From positions 1 through 40,613 of IMG/VR virus record IMGVR_UViG_3300032246_000338: DNA of 40,613 bases; one strand, 5' to 3'. The stretch comes from a virus. Shown in pieces: positions 5,820 through 23,422 of the stretch. Under the pieces are notes generated by a model that saw nothing but the letters and a program-made list of their open reading frames with translations, was not told the DNA's origin and searched no databases. The stretch's first letter is position 1. Each line of letters opens with the position of its first letter. The position numbers and the translations under genes are program-made.

Positions 5820-6182
5820 TTACCCCCTGACCAGCGGAGATAGCACCCTGTAACTGATGAGTGCTCTACCTTGGTCGCTTAGTTTAGTATAGGTCTTGCC
5901 ACTTAGTATGACACGCTCACCTGCAAGCATACCACCCCAAATGCCAAAGCCCAAGTTTTCATGCTTCATACCTTCTTCAAGGCACTCGGCTTTCTTTGGG
6001 CATAAGTTACACAGGGTCAAAGCCCTGCGTGTCTCTGCCACTAGTTTGGCTGTGTTCCTCTCGGAACGCGCACCTTGTGGTACATCAGGGAACCAAGCAT
6101 CAGGATTAGAATCCCCATGACAGTTGCCTAGTATCTGCTCAGTCTTCAAACTGCGCATCATGCCATTGGTCTGGGTCTCCAT
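5820..6182 (-). CDS. whiB: WhiB-family iron-sulfur transcription regulator
   Basis: 120 aa from ATG 6182 behind GGAGG; ATG 6200 is an alternative. It has the four WhiB cysteines (Cys21, Cys58, Cys61, Cys67, i.e. NCHGD... and CNLCPKKAEC) that hold a [4Fe-4S] cluster, and the diagnostic GFGIWGGM turn at 79-85. WhiB proteins are restricted to actinobacteria and their phages and act with the host principal sigma factor, so this gene marks the host phylum. It may turn host or phage promoters on or off. The gene overlaps the small acidic gene 6139-6246. Confidence 0.92.
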   Translation of the reverse strand: METQTNGMMRSLKTEQILGNCHGDSNPDAWFPDVPQGARSERNTAKLVAETRRALTLCNLCPKKAECLEEGMKHENLGFGIWGGMLAGERVILSGKTYTKLSDQGRALISYRVLSPLVRG

Positions 6183-6246
6183 CGTCCTCCTCTTCCTCAT
6201 AGTCCTTGCCTAGTGCTATGTCATCTTCTTCCCTTGGTTCACTCAT
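6139..6246 (-). CDS. Small acidic protein, 35 aa
   Basis: Begins MSEPREEDDIALGKDYEEEE and ends WHDAQFED. AGGAGG stands 6 bases before ATG 6246. It overlaps both the preceding 45-aa zinc-finger gene (its TGA is at 6239-6241) and the start of WhiB. More than a third of the residues are acidic. The function is unknown; translational coupling with WhiB suggests a linked role. Confidence 0.65.
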   Translation of the reverse strand: MSEPREEDDIALGKDYEEEEDDGDPDQWHDAQFED

Positions 6247-8098: not shown

Positions 8099-9331
8099 TT
8101 ATGCACTTACTTTCTGTCCGTTTAAACGGACACTAGGTTCAATGAGTCGCGCCATGCGCTCATTCAGTTCAGGGTACAAGTCTGCATGAGACTCGATATA
8201 GGTCATGAAGGAGTCGGTGCTTAGCCCACCTTCTTTGACTTGATTGACGGACATTACTCGGGTGAACTCAACGCTGGCATGCGCCAAGTCTATATGGGAT
8301 TTGATGGTATCAACCTTGGTAGTACCGCGGAAGATGCGCATCTCTAGGGTTGCTTGGTTCTGTGTATTGACCGCAGAGTATCGGTCACTACGGGTGCCAT
8401 GCTGAATCTTCTCGCGGAAACTACGCCATGTCTTGTAGTTGCGAGAGCCATTCTCATCACGCTCACCATTCCACGCTGATTGCATGACATCGTCGAACTT
8501 AGCCCAACGGCTAGATGAGCGACCAGCGAGAGTCTCGTAGAACACTTGATTGCTATAGACAAGGTTCAAGAATCGGTGCATGTGAGCACCGCCATTGAAT
8601 CCTGTGCGTGAGATGTGGATGTGAACACCGCATGTACCCGTACCCCACGACCTTACTTGATAGGTTTCTCGAAGACCATTCAACACTCTGAATAAATCTT
8701 CTGCTTGATTCTTGTAGAAGTCATGCGACATTGGATGCGTAACCAACTCGAACCCATGATTGAGTGAGCCGTCATGCTTGAGGTACGCCAAGTCCATGCC
8801 CTCCAGTTGGTAAGCATACTCGGATGCCTCACCATAATTCCTACTGCCAGCCTCTACCTCTACCTCAATGCCAAAGAACAAGCGTTCATTCTTATCGGTA
8901 CTGTGGAAGATAGGGTCAGGTCGGTAAGAGTAATCGTGGATAACTCTACTTGAATTACATGACTCGCAACCACTCTCGAAATATTGGTCACATTCATCAC
9001 AGAAGATAGCATTGTTGTCAGCGCAGATATTGCACCAGTAACAGCCCCTATCTTCGATATAGTATGTGCCTTCTGTGCCCCATTCCTCACAGGAATCACA
9101 CCAGTTAGCAGCACGCTCTGTACATGACAGGCACCAACGCGAGCATTGGTCTACCATGCACCAATCGTCATTCTCTGTGCCTATGTCATCACAGCGTTCA
9201 CATATGTAAGCGCAGTCATCACACACCCTATCGTTACTATATGAAACTGTACATGAATTGTCAGAGTTAATGCCAGTTGAACATACCACGCATGTGAACT
9301 CTGAATCATCTTCTGTTTCTATCATAACCAT
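8099..9331 (-). CDS. Amidoligase (glutamate-cysteine-ligase fold) with N-terminal zinc-ribbon array
   Basis: 410 aa (ATG 9331; ATG 9325 is also possible). Residues 14-125 contain 20 cysteines, mostly CxxC pairs, suggesting four or five tandem zinc ribbons. From about 152 the catalytic domain shows FFGIEVEVE, LKHDGSLNHGFELVTHP, TCGVHIHIS and TQNQATLEMRIFRGT, the order of the Amidoligase_2/GCS-fold ligases that form amide bonds using ATP. With the adjoining amidotransferase it should amidate or conjugate a carboxylate, perhaps on peptide, wall or protein substrates. A palindrome lies in its leader and another in its last codons (RLNGQKVSA). Confidence 0.8.
   Translation of the reverse strand: MVMIETEDDSEFTCVVCSTGINSDNSCTVSYSNDRVCDDCAYICERCDDIGTENDDWCMVDQCSRWCLSCTERAANWCDSCEEWGTEGTYYIEDRGCYWCNICADNNAIFCDECDQYFESGCESCNSSRVIHDYSYRPDPIFHSTDKNERLFFGIEVEVEAGSRNYGEASEYAYQLEGMDLAYLKHDGSLNHGFELVTHPMSHDFYKNQAEDLFRVLNGLRETYQVRSWGTGTCGVHIHISRTGFNGGAHMHRFLNLVYSNQVFYETLAGRSSSRWAKFDDVMQSAWNGERDENGSRNYKTWRSFREKIQHGTRSDRYSAVNTQNQATLEMRIFRGTTKVDTIKSHIDLAHASVEFTRVMSVNQVKEGGLSTDSFMTYIESHADLYPELNERMARLIEPSVRLNGQKVSA
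8116..8131. repeat. Palindrome copy 3 (GTCCGTTTAAACGGAC)
   Basis: Perfect 16-bp palindrome at the 3' end of the amidoligase gene, encoding RLNG; 19 bases before the amidotransferase start. Confidence 0.88.
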
Positions 9332-9390: not shown

Positions 9391-9419
9391 AGTCTAAGCC
9401 CTAGCCAAGTTATTGTCAA
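9391..9419 (-). promoter_or_regulatory. Sigma70-type promoter for the amidoligase operon
   Basis: On the minus strand: TTGACA, 17-bp spacer, TAGACT, followed by AG. The TAG of the -10 box is the stop codon of the upstream 59-aa gene. The same TTGACN-17-TAGACT design occurs at 10178 and 10539. Confidence 0.75.
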
Positions 9420-9573: not shown

Positions 9574-9758
9574 CGCTGGAACTCCATGACTGTCTCAAAG
9601 ACAATATCGTCAAGTTTCTCGGTGAGTTCTCGCCACTCCGCAACGCTAAGGTTATGCCCAAGAATCTCTTGGACAAGTTCATAGTCGAGTTGCGACTGCC
9701 ATGAATTGTTTGTGTCGGAAAAATTCCTCACCAATTCGTCTGATGATTGGTATGTCAT
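9570..9758 (-). CDS. Hypothetical protein, 62 aa
   Basis: Starts at ATG 9758 by TAATG overlap with the small membrane-protein gene. Helical, with LSVAEWRELTEKLDDIVFETV near the end. Its 5' half includes a 15-bp sequence (9706-9720) also present at 7204-7218. No family recognised. Confidence 0.65.
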   Translation of the reverse strand: MTYQSSDELVRNFSDTNNSWQSQLDYELVQEILGHNLSVAEWRELTEKLDDIVFETVMEFQR

Positions 9759-9928
9759 TATTGGAGACCCCAAATTCCATCATCGGTCACTAGGTTGTAC
9801 TGTCTGCGCCAATAATCACGCGACTTGGTGAGCCTGTAATTGGCAATCGCTGTGGTGATGATGACGATAATTGACGAAGTTAGCGCAATCGTTAACGCAA
9901 CCAAGTCACATGCTGACAATGTAATCAT
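9758..9928 (-). CDS. Small single-span membrane protein, 56 aa
   Basis: Reads MITLSACDLVALTIALTSSI and then IVIITTAIANYRLTKSRDYW. Residues 8-30 form one clear transmembrane segment, followed by a positively charged stretch that should stay in the cytoplasm. AAAGGA precedes ATG 9928, and palindrome copy 5 lies immediately upstream in its leader. It may be a superinfection-exclusion or holin-type peptide; unproven. Confidence 0.7.
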   Translation of the reverse strand: MITLSACDLVALTIALTSSIIVIITTAIANYRLTKSRDYWRRQYNLVTDDGIWGLQ

Positions 9929-9944
9929 TTTATATCCTTTGAAC

Positions 9945-9961
9945 TATCCGTTTAAACGGAT
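9945..9961. repeat. Palindrome copy 5 (TATCCGTTTAAACGGAT)
   Basis: Lies between the structured leader (9964-10165) and the start of the small membrane-protein gene. Perfect 14-bp core. Confidence 0.88.
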
Positions 9962-9963
9962 GA

Positions 9964-10171
9964 GGTAACAATCTGTTACCCCGTAGGTGAATGTATCGGT
10001 ATCCGCTATGGTATCGCAAGCGTAGGCGCGTACAACATCATTTCAGGTTGCCCTGCTGATTGACTATACATACCGATACATTCGCGCTCACCGCAGGACT
10101 CGCACCTGCGTAACTACCTTTCGTGAGCCACCAGCCAGCACCGCCCAATTCGGTGCATGGCTATCGCCAAT
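9964..10171 (-). ncRNA. Candidate structured RNA or long folded leader
   Basis: A gene-free stretch directly behind the minus-strand promoter 10178-10206. In order of transcription it contains an 11-bp hairpin with one bulge (10133-10162); a tRNA-like two-helix fold, with a 6-bp closing stem GCTCAC/GTGAGC (10086-10091 with 10123-10128) around a 6-bp stem and 7-base loop TGCGAGT (10092-10110); a 14-bp perfect long-range pairing (9989-10002 with 10070-10083); and a 7-bp hairpin (9964-9980). The loop matches a tRNA T-loop except at one position. It has no anticodon or D arm, so it is not a tRNA. It could be a riboregulator, a decoy, or a leader controlling the membrane-protein gene. Confidence 0.5.
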
Positions 10172-10177
10172 AAGACT

Positions 10178-10206
10178 AGTCTACCATTGGGCTAAGTTCT
10201 AGTCAA
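10178..10206 (-). promoter_or_regulatory. Sigma70-type promoter driving the structured leader
   Basis: Minus strand TTGACT, 17-bp spacer, TAGACT then AG. The -35 hexamer overlaps the stop codon of the 43-aa zinc-finger gene. Predicted transcript start is about 10171, at the edge of the first hairpin. Confidence 0.72.
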
Positions 10207-10538: not shown

Positions 10539-10567
10539 AGTCTACCCTATAAAGAAGTTTCGGTCAA
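10539..10567 (-). promoter_or_regulatory. Sigma70-type promoter upstream of the 44-aa gene
   Basis: Minus strand TTGACC, 17-bp spacer, TAGACT then AG. Palindrome copy 7 sits 20 bp upstream of the -35 box and copy 6 about 45 bp downstream of the -10 box, so the promoter is bracketed. Confidence 0.72.
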
Positions 10568-22477: not shown

Positions 22478-23422
22478 ATGGCTCTTACACCAGAGCAAGT
22501 ACCTTTTGATGAGAACAAGGATGGCAAATTAACTGGCGCAGAAATGTCCAACTATACTGCCGCAACCATTGCTAATGCTTTCTCAAGCGACACCTCAGGC
22601 AATCCAAAGTCTGGCACATCGGTTGATACATCTGTAACCAAGTTAACTAAAGAATCTGCACGTGCCCTCATGGAGAAAGCGGCAGAGGCTGCAGACTACA
22701 TGGGAACATTCTCAAGTGCAGACGTTACACAGTTCATGAATGAATTTGATGCAGAACAAGCACGCAATGTTGCTAAAGTTATTACAAAAACAGCATCAAA
22801 AACAACTAAAGGTGGAACAACCGCTGCAGCAGTTGACACTACTGCTGATAGCACAGCAAAGACAGAGTACCCATCAGCCTTCAAGCCCGAACAATTTGCA
22901 TCTGATTGGGTATGGTCAAAGATTAACTTTAAGGATGAAAAGACCCTTGGAACTAAATCTGTTACAGCACTGTCACAGGTGCGTGGAGTTATTGACTCAT
23001 TCCAACTACTTGGAGTATCTGATGCAGAAGCAAAAATTGCTGCAAAGCAGATTGCTATGGGCAAGAAAACTATTGCTGAGTACACTACAGATTTACAGCA
23101 AATTGCTATCAGAGAATACCCACAGTTTGCGGATAGATTTAAACTAGACCCAACCCTTACAACATATGATATTGCTTCTCCTGTTATCAATATGGTTGCT
23201 AAGACTCTAGAAATTGACCCAAAGACTGTCAAGATGGACAATCCAATCGTATTGGCATACACGCGTTATGCTGGTGCAGATGGCAAGGGTACTCCTCCAT
23301 CATACTATGATTTACTTCTTAAGACAAAGCAGTTACCAGAATATCAGAAGACTCAACAGGCAAATAACGAAGCCCGTGACTCAGCGTCATCACTTGCTAA
23401 AGCACTAGGATATGGACTTTAA
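22478..23422 (+). CDS. Internal virion protein with N-terminal EF-hand-like loop, 314 aa
   Basis: Residues 10-21, DENKDGKLTGAE, match the EF-hand calcium loop (D-x-N-x-D-G, Glu at position 12). The remainder is helical, with a Thr/Ala-rich linker (KTTKGGTTAAAVDTTADS) at 105-130 and a C-terminal domain with RYAGADGKGTPPSYYDLL. It ends by TAATG overlap with the next gene. It is probably packed with the 1685-aa protein; calcium may matter for assembly or ejection. Confidence 0.65.
   Translation: MALTPEQVPFDENKDGKLTGAEMSNYTAATIANAFSSDTSGNPKSGTSVDTSVTKLTKESARALMEKAAEAADYMGTFSSADVTQFMNEFDAEQARNVAKVITKTASKTTKGGTTAAAVDTTADSTAKTEYPSAFKPEQFASDWVWSKINFKDEKTLGTKSVTALSQVRGVIDSFQLLGVSDAEAKIAAKQIAMGKKTIAEYTTDLQQIAIREYPQFADRFKLDPTLTTYDIASPVINMVAKTLEIDPKTVKMDNPIVLAYTRYAGADGKGTPPSYYDLLLKTKQLPEYQKTQQANNEARDSASSLAKALGYGL

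Follow-up and report, generated by a model that had tools for sequence, protein, structure and literature searches.

The virus record IMGVR_UViG_3300032246_000338 (positions 1 to 40,613, which we call the window) contains a gene-free stretch of DNA between 9,964 and 10,206. An earlier note, made from the letters alone, described it as a structured RNA of about 200 nt behind a promoter, with a fold resembling the acceptor and T arms of a tRNA. What kind of RNA is this, how far is it kept among related phages, and what could read it?

All parts described in the earlier note are present, and the RNA lies on the minus strand (Table 1). The order on this strand is promoter, hairpin 1, tRNA-like minihelix, 91-nt module, hairpin 4, palindrome, AAAGGA and the 56-aa ORF. 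The good promoter placed before the RNA corresponds to TTGACT-17-TAGACT with an extended -10 (10206-10178), and the RNA indeed ends beside a palindrome (9946-9961) and before a small membrane-protein gene (9758-9928). The product of this ORF had no match in Pfam or PHROGs. A general promoter scan found 10 sites in 4.1 kb where 7.3 were expected, which is not above chance. The window has three sites of the form TTGACN..TAGACT, with 0.09 expected from shuffles, all of them on the minus strand with a 17-nt spacer (9391-9419, 10178-10206 and 10539-10567). The claim of a structured gene-free RNA behind the promoter was borne out by folding, as the minus strand of 9930-10175 reached -94.7 kcal/mol (z = -4.55) and none of 200 shuffles was as good. 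A plus-strand reading was considered, since this strand folds nearly as well (z = -4.41), and rejected. With folding energy near-equal on both strands, the assignment to the minus strand is based on the promoter, the flanking genes and the pattern of G-U pairs given below.

Table 1. Features of the leader and its surroundings in the window
Feature	Position	Strand	Basis or remark
Promoter-like TTGACT-17-TAGACT, TG before -10 (extended -10)	10178-10206	-	promoter scan
Predicted transcription start	near 10171	-	from promoter-like site
Hairpin 1, loop AATTGGG	10132-10163	-	fold and sequences of relatives
Minihelix covariance-model match (2 nt of 5' flank, helix, R73-C74-N)	10083-10130	-	73.1 bits, E 1.5e-17
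tRNA-like minihelix	10086-10128	-	conserved RNA core
Acceptor-like 5' strand GCTCAC	10123-10128	-	G1-C72 invariant in 52/52 distinct sequences
Linker GAAAGGTAGTTA with GG, replacing D and anticodon arms	10111-10122	-	GG in 52/52
T arm: 6-bp stem CGCAGG/CCTGCG, 7-nt loop TGCGAGT (10098-10104)	10092-10110	-	covariation, loop conservation
Acceptor-like 3' strand GTGAGC	10086-10091	-	followed by unpaired G73-C74-G, 10085-10083
91-nt module, structured: P2-P3 (GNRA loop) and P4 enclosed by the long stem P1	9991-10081	-	covariation, 20 sequences
Hairpin 4, before ribosome-binding site	9962-9982	-	stem present across distinct leaders
16-bp palindrome ATCCGTTTAAACGGAT	9946-9961	.	one of nine such window sites
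AAAGGA, likely ribosome-binding site	9936-9941	-	sequence
ORF, 56 aa, one predicted membrane segment	9758-9928	-	hydropathy maximum 2.32
Amidoligase-like protein, downstream	8099-9331	-	Pfam PF12224, E 7e-9
Palindrome copies	5745, 7226, 8116, 9340, 9946, 10477, 10586, 10762, 11479		window

The minihelix consists of the stems GCTCAC/GTGAGC and CGCAGG/CCTGCG and the loop TGCGAGT, as had been written before. The earlier description of the D and anticodon arms as missing was half right: there are no such arms, but the D arm is replaced by a linker carrying GG, and these two bases would, by their place in the sequence, occupy the position of G18-G19 of a D loop. The linker measures 12 nt in the window and 11-18 nt among relatives. 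Under a strict definition the minihelix occurs once in the window, and 200 dinucleotide-shuffled versions of the window yielded 3 such sites.

In order to place the element among known families we used ARAGORN, as the earlier note had proposed, and it predicted no tRNA or tmRNA in the window, in 20 relatives or in L192 and L193, i.e. in the window and 22 relatives. A tRNA proper was rejected on this result and on the absence of a cloverleaf with D and anticodon arms and of a 3' CCA; a tmRNA, which combines a tRNA-like domain with a tag reading frame, was rejected on the ARAGORN result. Searching the whole window with Rfam 15 gave nothing at or above the gathering threshold; the three matches recorded were weak (E 0.18 to 8.4) and fell well short of it.

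Relatives were collected through the downstream amidoligase-like gene (PF12224), which drew 24 viral loci. Using nhmmer, the core was found 5' of the amidoligase gene in 20 of these, and the other four (L008, L009, L011 and L020) have only 166-398 nt of record upstream. A T-arm pattern gave 37 stretches and a pattern for the long-stem module gave 17. Three of the 37 rows (L019 on the minus strand, L093 and L095) were judged spurious and left out, and a covariance model was built on the remaining 34 minihelices. An alignment of eight amidoligases led to 130 relatives, of which the best 80 were kept; with the window these loci make 81 sources. The model matches 70 of these 81 with E 4e-6 or better, and each of the 70 has a single match, ahead of the amidoligase gene and on its coding strand. 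The minihelix starts 388-946 nt upstream of the amidoligase match, and only L172 (388) is below 470. In the 11 misses the record extends 2-398 nt upstream of that match. Ten of them are strictly too short to show a minihelix because their upstream record is below the shortest distance seen, and L122 is a doubtful miss, as its 398 nt slightly exceed that distance. Every source long enough to show the minihelix clearly has it, which applies to this phage group only, since all sources were picked by one gene.

Outside the model matches, L192 (OX376640) has the minihelix intact at the corresponding position; its loop is TTCAAGA and its model score just 13.7 bits (E 0.45). In L193 (OX376641) we saw by eye an acceptor-like stem at the matching place (23020-23110) without a T loop, so the T loop can be lost. 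Immanuel3 (L194), a distant Streptomyces phage with 22 annotated tRNAs, showed no minihelix, just partial matches inside those tRNAs. A nucleotide search of annotated phages recovered no match, near or distant, and neither the module pattern nor the amidoligase alignment gave a match in host genome contigs. The window encodes a WhiB-family protein (5820-6200, minus strand, Pfam E 1.6e-9) and a terminase similar to those of Streptomyces phages, and these similarities suggest an actinobacterial host.

For conservation counts identical rows were counted once, which reduced the 70 sources (from the best 80 of 130 relatives) to 52 distinct sequences. In this alignment, which was fitted to the model and leans to its structure, all 624 pair cells are standard pairs. 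Double compensatory changes occur in 10 of the 12 minihelix pairs (120 cells; 35.8 in shuffles), and the pairing falls to 35-48 % when the partners are slid. Covariation over relatives, a check proposed in the earlier note, is strong. All 12 non-Watson-Crick cells are U-G or G-U on the minus strand and none is A-C, which fixes the RNA strand. MAFFT alignments made from sequence only gave 99.8 % pairing for the minihelix and 99.0 % for the module. The former figure refers to 408 cells in 34 rows, where 8 of the 12 pairs show double changes and one A-G pair occurs, in L073, a member outside the 70-source set.

The bases kept in all 52 distinct sequences are largely those of a tRNA elbow and acceptor end. 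G1-C72 is invariant, and the tRNA hallmarks, the G53-C61 pair and the loop T54-N-C56-R57-A58, are found throughout; the whole loop reads T[T/G]C[G/A]A[G/T/C]T, with T54, C56, R57, A58 and T60 invariant. Position 55 is T in 24 sequences and G in 28. To our knowledge G at this position is found in no ordinary tRNA; a G-N-R-A sequence may replace the U-turn here. The GG of the linker is always kept and, with the T loop, provides the letters of a mascRNA-type elbow in 52 of 52. R73 and C74 are likewise constant in a triplet RCG, RCT or RCA, whose third base is never C; CCA is absent, as it is from many bacterial tRNA genes. N-1:N73 is unpairable in 50 of 52 sequences (pairable in L150 and L163) and N-2:N74 in all of them, so the stack ends sharply at 6+6 = 12 bp, and the acceptor/T stack of a tRNA is 12 bp as well. 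N-1 is G in most promoter-class members; RNase P prefers U there. In one clade (L184, L169, L142 and similar) the linker, viewed by eye, repeats part of the acceptor 3' strand, and pairing of the acceptor 5' strand with the linker is a possible alternative fold there.

A conserved, strand-specific RNA with tRNA-elbow signatures thus stands in a fixed cis position. A promoter-like match starts 74-87 nt before the minihelix match in 39 of the 70 sources (from the best 80 of 130), and with the pattern used none was found just upstream in the other 31, several of which have the element 9-11 nt after the stop codon of an upstream gene with an acidic end. Hairpin 1 has the loop AWTTGGG in most promoter-class relatives; the leader alignment that includes it (25 of 34 leaders) was shifted between clades, and this hairpin was kept outside the covariation counts. 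From the minihelix to the start codon there are 36-59 nt in most sources, and about 99-154 nt where the module lies between. A first ORF was found behind the minihelix in 69 of 70 sources (none in L182 by the rule used), and 60 of the 69 pass a hydropathy cut of 1.6. Six of the nine that fail do so narrowly and are homologous to the common small membrane protein; in the other three, L164, L165 and L166, the first ORF is non-membrane. The RNA is more constant than the adjoining protein, as the first ORFs are not all alike (MITLSAGDL.., MELFNLEV.., MYLQTSDV.. and MYIEITD.. types). Between minihelix and start codon all 57 distinct leaders have a hairpin of at least 7 bp, whose 5' arm comes in 33 versions; in 3 of the 57 the best stem is the palindrome hairpin, not hairpin 4, and hairpins of single leaders are only weakly above shuffles (median 5 of 100).

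The reading that we favour, with about as much belief as doubt, is that of a cis-acting leader which copies the acceptor-plus-elbow half of a tRNA and which host RNase P would bind and cut 5' of G1. The coaxial stack of 12 bp would end in a T loop able to dock with the linker GG, creating a tRNA elbow that has neither D stem nor anticodon arm, and host RNase P would most likely bind it as a minimal pre-tRNA. The predicted cut, between 10129 and 10128, would remove the promoter-proximal hairpin 1 in the window and split off the upstream gene in operon-internal relatives. Whether the element follows a promoter or a stop codon, the predicted 5' end of the mRNA is identical, and the cut mRNA for the small membrane protein and the amidoligase would start with a compact structured end. 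We infer that linker and T loop touch in the elbow, that RNase P reads and cuts the element, and that this affects stability or translation.

An RNase P processing site is the best candidate mechanism because the invariant features are those that tRNA-processing enzymes read. The features of natural RNase P substrates are present (12-bp stack, T loop, G1-C72, unpaired N-1 and R73-C74), and by sequence the invariants amount to the RNase P recognition set minus C75 and the A of CCA. RNase P recognises the elbow through interdigitated T loops (PMC4810234), the elbow is read by both RNase P and RNase Z, which measure the distance to the cut (PMC11693755, PMC4810234), and the RCC at the 3' end base-pairs with G292-G293-U294 in the RNase P RNA of E. 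coli (PMC12710915). Substrates of RNase P include mRNAs, riboswitches and phage RNAs (PMC12710915), such as phage M3 RNA, phage C4 RNA and T4 gene 32 mRNA (PMC11143913). The points against this reading are the lack of CCA, G55 in 28 of 52 sequences, G at N-1 and the lack of a T loop in L193. If true, it would mean that DNA phages have a natural, conserved minimal tRNA mimic built into their mRNAs and employ a tRNA-processing enzyme of the host to express phage genes. The 52 natural variants define the tRNA parts needed by the reader and open the RNase P hypothesis to a direct test.

The main rival to RNase P processing is an uncut regulatory leader, which we regard as possible though doubtful. 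Here an elbow-reading partner (candidates are a phage protein, a ribosomal element or an RNA-modifying enzyme) would bind the fold in the 5'UTR and tune translation of the small membrane protein. The short fixed distance to the start codon, the hairpin just before the ribosome-binding site in 57 of 57 distinct leaders and the facultative module within the same leader are consistent with this, whereas R73-C74 and the sharp 12-bp boundary are not obviously required for mere binding. The riboregulator of the earlier note is possible if taken as a cis leader. Another explanation, which we hold unlikely, is a road-block or 5' shield, where the compact fold, cut or uncut, would protect the downstream mRNA from a 5'-to-3' exonuclease; in actinobacteria RNase J is such an enzyme. 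The element invariably precedes one and the same operon, whether behind a promoter or between genes, which would suit a shield, but shielding would not by itself demand the invariant T54, C56, R57, A58 and R73-C74.

The earlier note had also offered a tRNA decoy, i.e. a trans-acting RNA titrating host tRNA enzymes. The own promoter in the window and the tRNA-like core fit this idea. However, 70 of 81 sources (window and best 80 of 130; the other 11 are cut short) have a single copy fixed in cis, 31 of the 70 have no promoter-like match, the element can lie inside an operon and no terminator-like site lies directly behind the minihelix. A decoy is very unlikely, mainly because of the single copy and the fixed position before the same operon, and no stand-alone transcript is needed for the minihelix. 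Finally, T arms of tRNAs are typical attP cores, and the sequence could in principle act as DNA, as a tRNA-derived attachment site or another DNA signal. This we find hardly credible, given the compensatory changes on both arms, the deviations by G-U alone and a Pfam scan of 19 window ORFs that revealed no integrase.

The earlier suggestion of an unrecognised phage ncRNA family is borne out by the strong covariation, the lack of an Rfam match and the lack of a tRNA or tmRNA by ARAGORN. A family of tRNA-like phage leaders was not found in the openly accessible literature that was searched. Both mimics of tRNA and phage RNAs cut by RNase P have precedents, and the tRNA-like phage leader is a new variant among them. 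A close likeness is seen in mascRNA and menRNA, which have an acceptor and T arm, a reduced D region or loop and two conserved G that form the elbow; they recruit RNase P and RNase Z and are cut by them from MALAT1 and MEN-beta (PMC11693755). They are eukaryotic, derive from the 3' region of a long noncoding RNA and have an anticodon-like stem and CCA (PMC11693755), whereas the phage minihelix is a 5' or intergenic leader without either. M3 RNA, P1/P7 C4 RNA, T4 gene 32 and polycistronic operon mRNAs are cut by host RNase P (PMC11143913); the minihelix is a T-arm family kept over distant phages, and its cut is predicted. Substrates of the pATSer and EGS type follow the same minimal logic of acceptor stem and T stem-loop (PMC12710915, PMC11143913), but they are man-made, whereas the phage minihelix is natural, has a GG linker and lacks CCA. 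The 3' tRNA-like structure of TYMV is likewise a viral mimic of the tRNA elbow; it is at the 3' end, pseudoknotted and with CCA (PMC4810234), unlike the 5' or intergenic plain stem of a DNA phage. T-box and other riboswitch leaders are also structured mRNA leaders, but T-boxes bind a tRNA and the phage minihelix imitates one, and no Rfam riboswitch model matched the window.

The four helices of the earlier note, including its 14-bp long-range stem, are all in place, and the long stem is P1 of the 91-nt module (9991-10081). In 20 distinct sequences of this module, aligned with MAFFT from sequence only, pairing extends to 99.0 % of 600 cells, and double changes are seen in 10 of 30 pairs; the P3 loop is GAAA or GCAA. 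The module is present in 7 of the 81 sources (window and best 80 of 130 relatives), so that the minihelix is the constant core of the leader and the module is facultative. The closest relatives have no module, and their minihelix runs directly into hairpin 4. Among the 17 stretches found with the module pattern, 14 have a minihelix ahead and three do not. A broader pattern gave 33 new loci, four with the module (L083, L090, L103 and L108) and 29 chance matches, as judged by eye. The minihelix model gave no match in the seven module-only loci (these four and L068, L069 and L075), which represent another phage neighbourhood; in L068, L083 and L108 the module lies between a transglycosylase-like gene and other genes. 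It is a new RNA motif, the second at this locus and independent of the minihelix.

The module is a separate facultative RNA, which perhaps acts as a sensor. AUACC stands both in its P4 loop and in its P1 strand, which allows an exchange of pairing partners. One could imagine a composite switch, in which the slot would hold exchangeable RNAs that sense a ligand or a state and decide on RNase P cut or ribosome entry on the phage message, but we consider this rather unlikely. In the same slot, from the minihelix to the hairpin before the ribosome-binding site, different inserts were seen at L189:962-1120 and L191:2409-2515, and these are possibly further RNA motifs.

The palindrome behind hairpin 4 belongs to a set of nine 16-bp palindromes (ATCCGTTTAARCGGAT type), against 0.03 strand-matches expected in the window. 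Repeated palindromes of this kind are suggested to be co-evolving operators or RNA hairpins. Relatives have their own repeated versions, namely GTTCG..CGAAC, GTCGG..CCGAC and GGTCG..CGACC, some with unsymmetrical centres.
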